DNA of 42,710 bases from Gemmatimonadota bacterium (GTDB lineage Bacteria > Gemmatimonadota > Gemmatimonadetes > Gemmatimonadales > Gemmatimonadaceae), in assembly GCA_016218305.1 (NCBI GenBank), contig JACREJ010000097.1:1-42710 (forward strand). The letters are read 5' to 3'. Below are positions 28,498-42,710 of the stretch, piece by piece. The notes beneath the pieces are model-generated. The model did not search any database, was not told where the DNA came from, and worked only from the letters and a program-made list of their open reading frames with translations. Position 1 is the first letter of the stretch. Each line of letters starts with the position of its first letter. The translations under genes were made by a program, and so were the position numbers.

Positions 28498-28508
28498 GCC
28501 AACAATTA
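28498..28508 (+). repeat. Left copy of island-flanking direct repeat
   Basis: GCCAACAATTA, identical to 31225-31235, preceded at both sites by AA plus one base (13 of 14 matches). It also forms part of a small stem (CCAACA at 28499 / TGTTGG at 28511). Confidence 0.4.
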
Positions 28509-28587
28509 GGTGTTGGGTCAGTTTGAATCGGGGGCGCGATGAAATCCGCCTCTGACGGCACGCTTCTTGTGGCGGTAGATTCGCCGC

Positions 28588-28947
28588 GTGAAGAAATTTC
28601 TGGCGATTTGGAATCAGGCGAGCGTCATCGCAGGCGTGGTGGCGCGCATCGCCTATCGGGTGGTCGAAGGGGGGCTGGTTCTAGGCCTCTTCGTTATCGC
28701 CTGCTACGCTGGGTATTGGCTCGTTTTCGGAGACGTACAGGACCCGCGTTATGCTCGCATGACTGCGTTACTCTCGCTGGCGAGTGCGAACTGGCAGGCG
28801 GTTCTACTGCTTCTCATTCCCCTCTTCTACCGGACGGTGAGGACATTCGCGGAGGAGGTGCAGGAATTCGCGGGGGCGAAACGGCGGAGCAGCTTGCCCG
28901 GACCGGGATCGGAGGCGCAGAACCCCGCCAACCTGCCTACCCAATGA
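28588..28947 (+). CDS. Small membrane protein of unknown function
   Basis: 119 residues, GTG start. Two hydrophobic segments are visible: about 28-48 (EGGLVLGLFVIACYAGYWLVF) and about 65-85 (LSLASANWQAVLLLLIPLFY), followed by a polar C-terminal tail of ~35 residues (RTVRTFAEEVQEFAGAKRRSS...). I do not recognise the family. Its TGA overlaps the ATG of the next gene (ATGA), so the two products are made together. Base composition is more A/T-rich than in the flanking core genes, consistent with later arrival. Confidence 0.65.
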   Translation: MKKFLAIWNQASVIAGVVARIAYRVVEGGLVLGLFVIACYAGYWLVFGDVQDPRYARMTALLSLASANWQAVLLLLIPLFYRTVRTFAEEVQEFAGAKRRSSLPGPGSEAQNPANLPTQ

Positions 28948-29237
28948 GTGTCTTCACTTTGGGGGCTAACAGGAACTACGGAGCGCAGTACACCGTTCCG
29001 ACTAACGGTGCGATTCGCTTCGAGGTCGAGTCAGAGCGACCCATCGTTGTGTTGGTGATGGACGCGGCGAACTTCGCAGCATTTCGCGCAGGCAAGGTGC
29101 ACTCTTTCTATGGGTCTTCCGCTCCAAACACTGTGCATAAGCAGAGCTGGACGTTGCCATTCAGGGGCCCGTGGTATCTGGTTATGGTCAACTACTCCAA
29201 CCAGCCCGTAGCCGTGCACTTCAACGCATGGAGCTAG
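28944..29237 (+). CDS. Small beta-sandwich-like protein, resembling DUF1883
   Basis: 97 residues, coupled to the upstream membrane protein (ATGA overlap). All-beta in appearance: TLGANRNYGAQYTVPTNGAIRFEVESERPIVVLVMDAANFAAFRAGKVHSFYG..., then KQSWTLPFRGPWYLVMVNYSNQPVAVHFNA. The order 'V.V.LMD..N...Y..G', then 'W.L...GPWYLVMVN', is the pattern of DUF1883-type domains, some of which are joined to TIR domains in other bacteria; here no TIR is present. The similarity is by eye. Its TAG shares bases with the stop of the opposite transposase gene (CTAG at 29234-29237). Confidence 0.6.
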   Translation: MSVFTLGANRNYGAQYTVPTNGAIRFEVESERPIVVLVMDAANFAAFRAGKVHSFYGSSAPNTVHKQSWTLPFRGPWYLVMVNYSNQPVAVHFNAWS

Positions 29238-30088
29238 CCGAGAAGAGCCAGCACGTCCCCTACCTTCCACACGCGATCCGTAACGCCAGCCGCCATTGCT
29301 GGCGTTACGTGTATTCCGCCATTGGCCTTTGTAAGCGTGTGGTGCGGGCGACAGAAGTTGTAGTACATGAAATGCAGGGAGATCGCCCAAAGATGGTTCT
29401 GCATCTTCTTCGAGTAGCCGTTGGTCAAGCGCGTGTAGCGGCGGCTGCTCATCCGGATGGTGAGGTTGGCGCGCTCGGCGTAAGACGTGCTGACGTGGAT
29501 CGGATCGGGGTTGCCCATGATTGGCGTTATCTCAGTCCCTACGCACTCGGCAGGGCTATAGCGCCGTGAGGTTTCCCGTGAGAGGCCGTCGCCGTACAGC
29601 TTCACCAACATGGCGTAATCCACGCCATTCCACCCGAACGCTTGCTCGACGGCGGACAGATACGCCCTGTGGCCGTCCGTGGTGAGTTGCACCCTGCTAG
29701 CGAGCCGTCCGGCTAGGTCTTCCAGAAAGATCGTAGCGGCAATCGCATCGCGTGGGCCGACGTGCCAGCACGGAATCAGCTTGGTGTCGGCGCAGATGGC
29801 CGTCCATGTCCAGCAATCGCCGCGCTCGCCCGTTCCGCGCAGTTCTTCCGGGGTGTTCTTCTCCTTCGCCCCGACGAAAGACCAAATCTCGTCGCATTGA
29901 ATCCGCTTGCACGGGAGATTGACAAGGGTGCGACGTTGGTAGTCGAGACAGGCCTCGCCAACCTCGGCGAGAAGCCGCAACGCCGTTCCCTTCGCGCTCC
30001 CCGTCATGCGACACGCGGCACGAATCGAGGCCCCGTCCACCAAGGCCCGGACTATTGCCGCTCGGCGGTCTGGGGATAGCCGATTCAT
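29234..30088 (-). CDS. IS1-family type DDE transposase
   Basis: 284 residues. N-terminal helix-turn-helix (RRAAIVRALVDGASIRAACRMTGSAKGTALRLLAEVG), then the DDE core: first Asp in QCDEIWSFVGAKEKN, second in LTTDGHRAYL, and the Glu in SYAERANLTIRMSSRRYTRLTNGYSKK. The C-terminal YYNFCRPHHTL and VTPAMAAGVT are typical of this IS1-like group. The frame is full length. I see no matching terminal inverted repeats, and the opposite gene ends on the same four bases, so a complete IS is not demonstrable; it may be a remnant or a resident gene. A regulated-looking promoter stands at its 5' end. Confidence 0.85.
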   Translation of the reverse strand: MNRLSPDRRAAIVRALVDGASIRAACRMTGSAKGTALRLLAEVGEACLDYQRRTLVNLPCKRIQCDEIWSFVGAKEKNTPEELRGTGERGDCWTWTAICADTKLIPCWHVGPRDAIAATIFLEDLAGRLASRVQLTTDGHRAYLSAVEQAFGWNGVDYAMLVKLYGDGLSRETSRRYSPAECVGTEITPIMGNPDPIHVSTSYAERANLTIRMSSRRYTRLTNGYSKKMQNHLWAISLHFMYYNFCRPHHTLTKANGGIHVTPAMAAGVTDRVWKVGDVLALLG

Positions 30089-30092
30089 GGCT

Positions 30093-30123
30093 ACAATATG
30101 CTTGAGCGCTCAAGCATTGTCAA
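30093..30123 (-). promoter_or_regulatory. Transposase promoter with a 20-bp palindromic operator between -35 and -10
   Basis: Minus strand: TTGACA (30118-30123), 19-nt spacer, TATTGT (30093-30098), ending 4 nt before the ATG, so the transcript would be leaderless or nearly so. The spacer is filled by the perfect palindrome ATGCTTGAGCGCTCAAGCAT (30098-30117), the usual layout of a repressor site. Confidence 0.6.
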
Positions 30124-30141
30124 TAGGGAAAAGAAGCAAAA

Positions 30142-30170
30142 CACCCCCGGCGAGGTCTTCGCCGGGGGTG
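30142..30170 (-). terminator. Rho-independent terminator after the tRNA pair
   Basis: Perfect 12-bp stem CACCCCCGGCGA / TCGCCGGGGGTG, 5-nt loop, followed on the minus strand by TTTTGCTTCTTTT. It ends the minus-strand unit that carries the two tRNAs. Confidence 0.8.
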
Positions 30171-30212
30171 GCGGAAGTATTGACACGCGAATTGCGTGTT
30201 AATACCTTCCGC
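30171..30212 (-). other. Long stem-loop directly behind the ochre-type tRNA
   Basis: 30171-30188 pairs with 30194-30212: 18 bp with a single bulge and one G-U pair, loop GAATT. It begins 10 nt past the tRNA 3' end and abuts the terminator, so it may guide 3' processing. Confidence 0.6.
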
Positions 30213-30221
30213 GTGGAAGGG

Positions 30222-30306
30222 CGGGAGCGGAGGGATTCGAACCCTCGGGGGTTAGGGCCCCGTCGGTTTTAAAGACCGCTGCGATAAGCCACTCTGCCAC
30301 GCTCCC
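30222..30306 (-). tRNA. Class II tRNA with anticodon UUA (ochre-suppressor type), tRNA-Ser-like
   Basis: 85 nt. Acceptor GGGAGCG pairs fully with CGCTCCC, position 73 is G (as in tRNA-Ser), U8 is present, the D-loop has AGTGG, the T-arm GAGGG-TTCGAAT-CCCTC is perfect and there is a long variable arm. The anticodon loop is CTTTAAA closed by GGT/ACC, giving anticodon UUA (complement of 30270-30272), which pairs with the stop codon UAA. Mismatches at 12-23 (A-C) and 27-43 (G-A) weaken it. CCA is not encoded. Either a suppressor tRNA of a mobile element or a decaying tRNA. Confidence 0.7.
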
Positions 30307-30320
30307 GTGGACGTGTTGTG

Positions 30321-30404
30321 AGGAGAGCAAGGGAGTTGAACCCTGGGCGCTGTAACGCCCGCCAAGTTTTTGAGACCCGTTTCCAGACCGCTGGGCTACT
30401 CTCC
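30321..30404 (-). tRNA. Class II tRNA-like, anticodon CAA (Leu), structurally imperfect
   Basis: Anticodon loop CTCAAAA between CGGGT and ACTTG gives CAA (30370-30372), a Leu UUG reader. A long variable arm (GGCGGGC...GCGCCC) and a T-loop TTCAACT are present. Acceptor GGAGAGT pairs with GCTCTCC, but then position 8 is not U; with CGGAGAG as acceptor, U8, A14 and G18-G19 fall in place but the 3' side is one base out of step. The D-stem pairs poorly. Possibly a pseudo-tRNA. Confidence 0.5.
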
Positions 30405-30419
30405 GAAGAATCAGTTTTG

Positions 30420-30449
30420 AAGCGGCCACCTCTCAACGGGTGGCCGCTT
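30420..30449 (-). terminator. Hairpin between the winged-helix-like gene and the tRNAs
   Basis: Perfect 11-bp stem AAGCGGCCACC / GGTGGCCGCTT, 8-nt loop, 2 nt after the TAA of the gene at 30452-30856. On the minus strand it is followed by only a weak T-tract (CAAAACTG), on the plus strand by TGTT. Confidence 0.55.
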
Positions 30450-30451
30450 TG

Positions 30452-30856
30452 TTATCCGAGTAGTCTTGCCCCCTCTGCGGTAAGGTAGTATCCGCCGTCG
30501 GGGCGCCTCTCAATGCGCCGACGGATGACTGCTTGTCCAATGATGTTCGCCATGTTCTTGCGGGGCCGCGTCGAGTTCGTTTCGACGCTTCGCAGCAGAA
30601 TGTCAATCAGGGCACCCTGACGAATTCCGGGATTACCGGATACGGCGGAGAGGACTTCCTGCGCCACGCTGCGCCCGGAGTGAACGAGGGTCTGGCTCTT
30701 TGGTGCGCGTGCCATGCGTGTCTCTGTCGTCGCCGGTATCTGCACGGGTGCGGCTGCGCCATAGAGTTCACGCAGGCCCAACAGCAGCTTGCGCTCGGCT
30801 TCGATCTGCGCGAGCCGGGCGTCAATGCCTTCGATAGTGAGCGGGTACGAGGCCAT
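30452..30856 (-). CDS. Unknown protein with coiled-coil start and winged-helix-like end
   Basis: 134 residues, ATG at 30856, TAA stop. The N-terminus (IEGIDARLAQIEAERKLLLGLRELYG) is a likely coiled coil for pairing. A basic linker follows, then GRSVAQEVLSAVSGNPGIRQGALIDILLRSVETNSTRPRKNMANIIGQAVIRRRIERRPDGGYYLTAEGARLLG, whose helix-helix-strand pattern with a final 'RRPDGGYYLT..G..LL' wing is that of winged-helix DNA-binding domains. It has its own promoter with an internal inverted repeat, so it may be self-regulating. Family not recognised. Confidence 0.65.
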   Translation of the reverse strand: MASYPLTIEGIDARLAQIEAERKLLLGLRELYGAAAPVQIPATTETRMARAPKSQTLVHSGRSVAQEVLSAVSGNPGIRQGALIDILLRSVETNSTRPRKNMANIIGQAVIRRRIERRPDGGYYLTAEGARLLG

Positions 30857-30862
30857 GGCCTA

Positions 30863-30891
30863 GAATTATCATAGGCAGGCCTACGTGTCAA
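30863..30891 (-). promoter_or_regulatory. Promoter of the winged-helix-like gene with a small operator
   Basis: Minus strand: TTGACA (30886-30891) and a TAATTC (17-nt spacing, 30863-30868) or GATAAT (15-nt, 30865-30870) -10 box. Between them lies TAGGC-CT-GCCTA (30872-30883). The -10 is only 7-9 nt before the ATG. Confidence 0.5.
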
Positions 30892-30921
30892 GGTGTTTGG
30901 CGTCCTTTCGGGCCTAGTGCA

Positions 30922-31167
30922 CTATTGCACACCCCAACGCTTCCGTGCCGCCTTCTTGGCGATTTCCGCCCTGCGCTCTGGCGTCAATGACTCGGCACGG
31001 GCCTTGCCGCCCCTCAGGCCGCCCTTTCGGCCCAACGCGACGGCGGCAGGGTCTTTCTTGCGCTGGGGCGGCTTTACGGCCTCTCCCGTGGCCTGCGCGA
31101 CGACACGCGCGGCCAAGAGGTTCGGGTCTGTCGGTGGCTTCTTTCTTGAGCGGTCAGGCATGACCAC
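30922..31167 (-). CDS. Small basic Lys/Arg/Gly-rich protein
   Basis: 81 residues from a GTG with GGGAG nine bases upstream; an in-frame ATG two codons later is the alternative. The N-terminal half (MPDRSRKKPPTDPNLLAARVVAQATGEA) precedes DPAAVALGRKGGLRGGKARAESLTPERRAEIAKKAARKRW. This 'VALGRKGG.KGGKARA..LTPE.R.EIAKKAA..RW' pattern recurs in many short bacterial proteins of unknown role, sometimes labelled histone H1-like because of its charge. DNA or RNA binding is plausible from composition only. First gene of the minus-strand unit of the island. Confidence 0.7.
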   Translation of the reverse strand: MVMPDRSRKKPPTDPNLLAARVVAQATGEAVKPPQRKKDPAAVALGRKGGLRGGKARAESLTPERRAEIAKKAARKRWGVQ

Positions 31168-31224
31168 ATGATAAAGCTCCCGTCAAATCCGCGCCATACT
31201 CTTAGGGTCTGAAAGTGACCCAAT

Positions 31225-31235
31225 GCCAACAATTA
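31225..31235 (+). repeat. Right copy of island-flanking direct repeat
   Basis: GCCAACAATTA, identical to 28498-28508. It stands 8 nt before the -35 box of the tRNA operon promoter. Confidence 0.4.
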
Positions 31236-31242
31236 CAACGGC

Positions 31243-31271
31243 TTGACACTTGCCATGAACGCGAGTATTCT
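31243..31271 (+). promoter_or_regulatory. Strong promoter of the tRNA operon
   Basis: TTGACA (31243-31248), 17-nt spacer, TATTCT (31266-31271), 26 nt before tRNA-Thr. The best -35 box seen in the window, as expected for stable RNA. Confidence 0.75.
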
Positions 31272-31297
31272 AAGAGTCTCGCAAAAAATGGCCAGTC

Positions 31298-31370
31298 GCT
31301 GACGTAGCTCAACTGGCAGAGCACTTGATTTGTAATCAAGCGGTTGCGAGTTCGACTCTCGCCGTCAGCT
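31298..31370 (+). tRNA. tRNA-Thr (anticodon UGU)
   Basis: 73 nt. Acceptor GCTGACG / CGTCAGC, D-loop with AACTGG, anticodon loop TTTGTAA closed by CTTGA/TCAAG, T-arm GCGAG-TTCGACT-CTCGC, discriminator U. CCA not encoded. First of four tRNAs in the order Thr-Tyr-Gly-Thr, identical to E. coli thrU-tyrU-glyT-thrT. Confidence 0.97.
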
Positions 31371-35267: not shown

Positions 35268-39833
<4,566 letters not shown>

Positions 39834-39836
39834 CCG

Positions 39837-42710
<2,874 letters not shown>

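Follow-up and report, generated by a model that had tools for sequence, protein, structure and literature searches.

The window analysed here is a stretch of 42,710 nucleotides from a Gemmatimonadota bacterium. Between cysS and a tRNA-Thr/ribosomal-protein operon, it carries a transposon of the IS1 type, and this transposon in turn holds two tRNA genes upstream of its transposase. The features of the locus are, in order of position:

28501-28508, forward strand: target-site duplication AACAATTA, left copy
28509-31227, whole element, no strand assigned: IS1-like transposon, 2719 bp (inverted ends, target duplication, empty sites)
28509-28530, forward strand: left terminal inverted repeat
28588-28947, forward strand: possible cargo gene, 119 aa
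28944-29237, forward strand: possible cargo gene, DUF1883-like (20.4 bits, below the Pfam cut-off of 26, for the frame 28539-29237)
29234-30088, reverse strand: IS1-like transposase, 284 aa, no internal stop, TAG end (NCBIfam NF033558)
30095-30123, reverse strand: transposase promoter TTGACA-17-CATATT, overlapping the palindrome TGCTTGAGCGCTCAAGCA
30142-30170, reverse strand: strong intrinsic terminator separating the tRNAs from the transposase promoter (12 pairs, 10 of them G-C, with a T tail)
30222-30306, reverse strand: class II tRNA with a Ser-type body and anticodon UUA (Rfam, ARAGORN, body typing)
30321-30404, reverse strand: irregular tRNA gene with anticodon CAA, U73 and an 8/4, allo-tRNA-like fold (ARAGORN, Rfam, MFE fold)
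30452-30856, reverse strand: cargo gene, 134 aa, no family match, TAA end followed by a hairpin
30922-31167, reverse strand: possible cargo gene, 81 aa, no family match
31206-31227, reverse strand: right terminal inverted repeat
31228-31235, forward strand: target-site duplication AACAATTA, right copy

The first-pass annotation had placed the UUA tRNA in an accessory island, and a mobile location is supported and strengthened, as the ‘island’ turns out to be a complete IS1-like transposon. Its inverted ends (GGTGTTGGGTCAGTTTGAATCG and GGCATTGGGTCACTTTCAGACC) match at 15 of 22 positions and are directly flanked by the 8-bp duplication, the combination of terminal inverted repeats and 8-bp target duplication expected of IS1-family elements. 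In eight genomes of the same genus the site is empty and uninterrupted, with AACAATTG where the window has AACAATTA, and the insertion is shown to be recent. Given these transposon ends and empty sites, an ordinary integrase-type island was rejected. Both hallmarks, inverted ends and 8-bp duplication, were seen in about half of the related elements (122/236), which come from many phyla.

As a side observation, the window element sits just upstream of what appears to be the promoter of the tRNA-Thr operon (31228-31298), and a host tRNA gene often lies 48-81 bp downstream of IS1-like elements (the window, L059, L073, L079, L106, L128 and L185). Of the 122 elements whose ends were mapped, roughly 9 lie no more than 100 bp from a tRNA gene, far more than a rough expectation of under 1, which hints at a target preference. 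Separately, one element on a viral contig is inserted in a long tRNA array (L174:1779-6135), within 2 and 8 bp of two tRNA genes.

The transposase resembles the IS1 model of NCBIfam (NF033558; E 1.3e-11) at 44.8 bits, below the curated cut-off of 100, and its relatives on plasmids are annotated as IS1 family transposases; Pfam and PDB searches with it returned no match. Its best named relatives, together with the gene content, point to Gemmatimonadota as the host phylum. Palindromes similar to TGCTTGAGCGCTCAAGCA also precede the transposases of L064, L093, L098 and L432. Since the terminator comes before the transposase promoter, the tRNAs of the window are probably expressed independently of the transposase.

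The tRNA gene at 30222-30306 had been described as a class II tRNA with a perfect acceptor stem and T arm, G73, an anticodon loop CTTTAAA and, in consequence, the anticodon UUA. Each of these points is borne out. ARAGORN calls a tRNA-Stop (tta) at 30219-30307 on the reverse strand, and the hit of the Rfam tRNA family (RF00005) to 30222-30306, a cloverleaf, scores 48.8 bits (window-wide E 1.4e-7) against a gathering cut-off of 29. The acceptor stem (7 bp) and the T stem (5 bp) are perfect, the anticodon lies at 30270-30272 and CCA is not encoded. One way in which the claim could have failed was a covariance-model fold with a different anticodon; the covariance model and ARAGORN both give UUA, which pairs with UAA as in an ochre suppressor. 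The two stem mismatches that had been noted correspond to exactly two non-standard pairs in the covariance model: one belongs to the D stem, the other is the uppermost pair of the anticodon stem. The fold energy is unexceptional (z -1.4), so support for the gene comes from the tRNA profile and from its recurrence, and not from fold energy. Its score is the joint lowest, with one other, among the 25 tRNAs found in the genome, an incomplete assembly (92% complete).

With the anticodon masked, nine of the ten nearest bodies among 687 reference tRNAs are Ser tRNAs, and this typing recovers Ser in 52/54 and Leu in 42/43 cases when each reference is left out in turn. Together with the long variable arm and G73, the body thus carries the features of Ser identity. 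The host has its own Ser-UGA gene elsewhere in the genome, which aligns with the UUA tRNA at 76% over most of its length. Read from its sequence, the window gene is a Ser-type tRNA whose anticodon lies one base away from Ser-UGA.

Fourteen base pairs upstream lies a second tRNA gene that the first-pass annotation did not contain. ARAGORN calls it tRNA-Leu (caa) at 30320-30404 on the reverse strand, the bodies nearest to it are Ser, and its best Rfam match is tRNA-Sec, at 39.3 bits under a cut-off of 47. In its MFE fold (z -2.3) the acceptor stem has 8 bp and the D and T stems 4 bp each, the D loop has 4 nt and the variable arm is long. This is the 8/4 branch of allo-tRNAs, but the gene has U73 in place of the Ser discriminator G73. 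The UUA gene, by comparison, has a 7/5 branch in both the covariance model and the MFE fold, and not the 8/4 or 9/3 of allo-tRNAs. The 134-aa gene upstream ends in TAA, as had been stated. Beyond this TAA its frame runs through both tRNA genes and the next TAA it encounters is that of the UUA tRNA's anticodon loop (30222-30480, reverse strand), probably a coincidence.

Blind scans were made for stop-reading tRNAs elsewhere. On viral contigs, a pattern scan for class II UUA tRNAs returned 107 stretches, 18 of them confirmed by ARAGORN, and five of these 18 (from two distinct elements) have an IS1-like transposase 135-142 bp downstream. In a control scan for amber tRNAs on viral contigs, none of 89 lies beside an IS1-like transposase (Fisher p 8e-5, or 0.02 with four copies of one element collapsed). 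Across 390 Gemmatimonadota genomes, the ochre class II scan matched the window only; across 396 Acidobacteriota genomes, it gave five pattern matches and one tRNA confirmed by ARAGORN (L440), which lies within an IS1-like element with ends and target duplication, on the strand opposite to the transposase. A scan of viral contigs for ACU gave 120 stretches with nine confirmed, about chance level, and for this reason only ARAGORN-confirmed tRNAs were counted.

The smallest of these elements (L347, 1323 bp) consists of a repeat, a UUA tRNA, a transposase and a repeat, with the duplication AATCTCCC. Another, present at L407, L418 and L432, is identical exactly up to the right inverted repeat, beyond which L407 and L432 diverge. 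Further ochre tRNAs, without an IS1-like transposase, were seen on viral contigs at L355, L358, L362, L375, L380, L390, L391, L396, L414, L424, L332 and L421. Many of them look Leu-like by eye, and near the one at L375 is a frame resembling an IS1595 transposase. Also without an IS1-like transposase, a viral contig carries irregular UUA and UAU tRNAs in tandem (L426:8059-8242, reverse strand), adjoining a frame that reads like a phage lysin.

Among the distinct transposases returned by our searches, which favour close relatives of the queries, 14 of 236 have an ARAGORN tRNA 57-254 bp upstream, all 14 on the transposase strand. Their anticodons are UUA (the window, L347, L432 and L611), ACU (L063, L064 and L187), GCU (L098 and L680), UAU (L093 and L603), AGU (L573), UGC (L605) and UAG (L076). 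A relaxed finder gave 15 elements with a tRNA on the transposase strand (including L138, which looks like chance, and L157, which is new), none with one on the opposite strand and none with one inside the transposase. Over 90% of the transposase relatives have no tRNA, so the tRNA must be regarded as optional cargo. Two further genes deserve mention alongside this census. The tRNA-like sequence of L157, which precedes its transposase by about 160 bp, has perfect acceptor and T arms and an anticodon arm that is much enlarged. In L088 (2741-2833), a Ser-like body, close to the UUA tRNA of the window, bears a Leu anticodon (UAA); it lies on the transposase strand, 668 bp upstream.

The constancy of strand and distance raises the question of what the tRNA does for the transposase. 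A decoding role does not need it, since a tRNA acts from anywhere, and it is the main fact that pure decoding leaves unexplained; it favours a cassette slot or a role in processing. The tRNA could serve as an insulator: RNase P and RNase Z would cut read-through transcripts at the tRNA, shielding transposase expression from outside promoters, while the anticodon drifts. The perfect acceptor and T stems beside variable D and anticodon arms are what such a device would show, and so are the sister elements L432 and L605, which hold different tRNAs in the same slot. Against this, the window already has a strong terminator between tRNA and transposase, the L440 tRNA is on the other strand, and drift alone should not yield ACU in three elements, keep U33 (retained in all but one anticodon loop of the transposase-adjacent tRNAs) or arrive at UUA in five places of the transposase tree. 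We regard insulation as distinctly unlikely.

On that tree, the 18 tRNA-bearing elements need 17 changes, and the five UUA elements (the window, L347, L432, L611 and L440) need five, in five separate places. Repeated gain, or exchange of tRNAs in a fixed slot, fits better than descent from a single ancestor. The UUA bodies differ as well: Ser-type in the window, Leu-type in L347, L432 and L440, and a short class I or mini-tRNA in L611. This also bears on a check named in the first-pass annotation, conservation of the UUA anticodon in related genomes: independent transposon relatives carry UUA tRNAs at the same place, and the opposite outcome, close relatives with an ordinary Ser or Leu anticodon at this locus, did not come true. 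Most of the 14 slot tRNAs combine a body with a mismatched anticodon (UUA, ACU, GCU or UAU). Nearest-neighbour typing of class I bodies lacks the power to establish that the ACU and GCU genes derive from Arg tRNAs.

Such recurrence bears on whether the tRNAs are merely decaying passengers, captured by chance, with anticodons that mutated once function was lost. The UUA tRNA of the window, with two broken pairs and a low score, would suit this account, as would the degenerate second gene and the tRNAs of L440 and L666, which lie elsewhere in their elements and on the opposite strand. Chance capture, however, should mostly deliver ordinary isoacceptors, whereas UUA recurs with Ser-type, Leu-type and mini bodies, and the acceptor and T arms are perfect, with conserved loop features. 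Decay is very unlikely in our judgement.

A third alternative is that the tRNA-like genes take no part in translation and yield decoy or regulatory RNAs for the transposon (e.g. titrating synthetases, nucleases or modification enzymes), with an odd anticodon that avoids normal decoding. Irregular forms do occupy the same slot, namely the 8/4 CAA gene of the window, the L611 mini-tRNA and L157 with its expanded arm, and some allo-tRNA(UAU) forms were inactive in E. coli according to a review (Krahn et al. 2020, PMC7609411). Yet ACU and GCU read common Ser codons, so these tRNAs are not kept out of decoding, and U33 is retained along with mostly intact anticodon stems. On balance we consider decoys unlikely.

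What an active UUA tRNA would mean depends on how UAA is used. The host code is unchanged: core genes end in UAA (rplA, rplL and rpoB, with rpmG added by reading the sequence) and the transposase contains none, in line with the earlier statement that UAA is a normal stop of rpmG, rpoB and rplL. Past the UAA, the next in-frame stop comes after 33 codons in rplL and 163 in rplA. After the UAA of rpoB (35268-42710), no in-frame stop follows in the remaining 958 codons of the window, presumably rpoC, and read-through of this UAA would produce a fusion of RpoB with the protein encoded next. That an active UUA tRNA would extend host proteins is a fair deduction. With core genes ending in UAA, strong suppression should be harmful to the host, which makes a weak or conditional effect likelier.

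The element itself is independent of UAA read-through, since its transposase frame is free of UAA and closes with TAG. That the element recodes its own genes was accordingly rejected for the transposase, and L347 has no gene besides its UUA tRNA and transposase. The transposases of UUA elements stop at TGA or TAG, with no clear difference from a background of 31 TAA in 147. In the ACU and GCU elements, AGY codons fall at conserved Ser columns of the transposase, ordinary Ser codons being kept, and these columns gave no sign that the elements use altered decoding.

Our preferred reading treats the two tRNA genes ahead of the transposase as a cassette and the Ser-type UUA tRNA as a mobile, natural ochre suppressor; we see this as about evenly balanced between right and wrong. 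The tRNA would be transcribed separately from the transposase, receive CCA from a host enzyme and be charged with serine. Recognition by SerRS and LeuRS ignores the anticodon, so that tRNAs with changed anticodons can still be charged. For SerRS, this is documented (Krahn et al. 2020, PMC7609411), and Ser charging would be expected in spite of the UUA anticodon because SerRS does not read it. The charged tRNA, competing with release factors, would then insert serine at some UAA codons. Judging from sequence features, Ser charging and UAA suppression are likely, and suppression is probably of low efficiency or conditional. The two broken pairs and the joint-lowest score count against a suppressor and may point to weak activity or decay. 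The constant strand and distance, the lack of any sign that the elements use altered decoding, and the absence of a tRNA from most relatives count against it as well. Our best guess for the transposon's gain is low-level mis-decoding as a passenger trait, and not recoding of its own genes.

More broadly, IS1-like transposons may be a widespread vehicle for altered-decoding tRNAs (stop suppressors and tRNAs of swapped identity, among them allo-tRNAs) that have repeatedly entered a single slot next to the transposase and spread low-level code changes between bacteria, a reading to which we give slightly less than an even chance. It would make transposons a possible natural vehicle for tRNAs that alter decoding. 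With a defined element that carries them, two questions become testable in common laboratory strains: does mobile DNA pass suppressor tRNAs on, and how are these tolerated by hosts whose rpoB and ribosomal genes end in UAA?

Several known systems offer a comparison. Laboratory ochre suppressors have been derived from Ser tRNAs by a single-base change of the anticodon, which the synthetase ignores. The window tRNA shares the one-base change and the anticodon-blind synthetase, and differs in being natural, transposon-borne and known here from its sequence. The suppressor tRNAs of recoding phages are likewise stop-anticodon tRNAs on a mobile element in a standard-code host. Such phages, however, reassign the stop in their own genes, whereas the window transposase lacks an in-frame UAA, and the 89 amber tRNAs of viral contigs were never found beside an IS1-like transposase. 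With IS1-family insertion sequences, the element shares transposase similarity, inverted ends starting with GG and the 8-bp target duplication; unlike them, it has a single open transposase frame scoring below the family cut-off, and it carries cargo genes and tRNAs. We found no reports of IS1-borne tRNAs in our searches of open-licence papers.

The closest parallel is with allo-tRNAs (Mukai et al. 2017, via Krahn et al. 2020, PMC7609411), Ser-type tRNAs with a long variable arm and non-Ser anticodons, including UAU and ochre ones, some of which have been suspected of a link with transposable elements (Krahn et al. 2020, PMC7609411). The CAA gene of the window folds 8/4 like an allo-tRNA, and in L093 and L603 the UAU genes show an additional C(-1):G73 pair; the UUA gene of the window, in contrast, has the canonical 7/5 form. 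Since their description in 2017, allo-tRNAs have had no clear home or purpose, and their link to transposons was previously only a guess. Here the transposon is defined by its ends, target duplication and empty sites, with repeated acquisition in its relatives, and so gives that guess a concrete vehicle.
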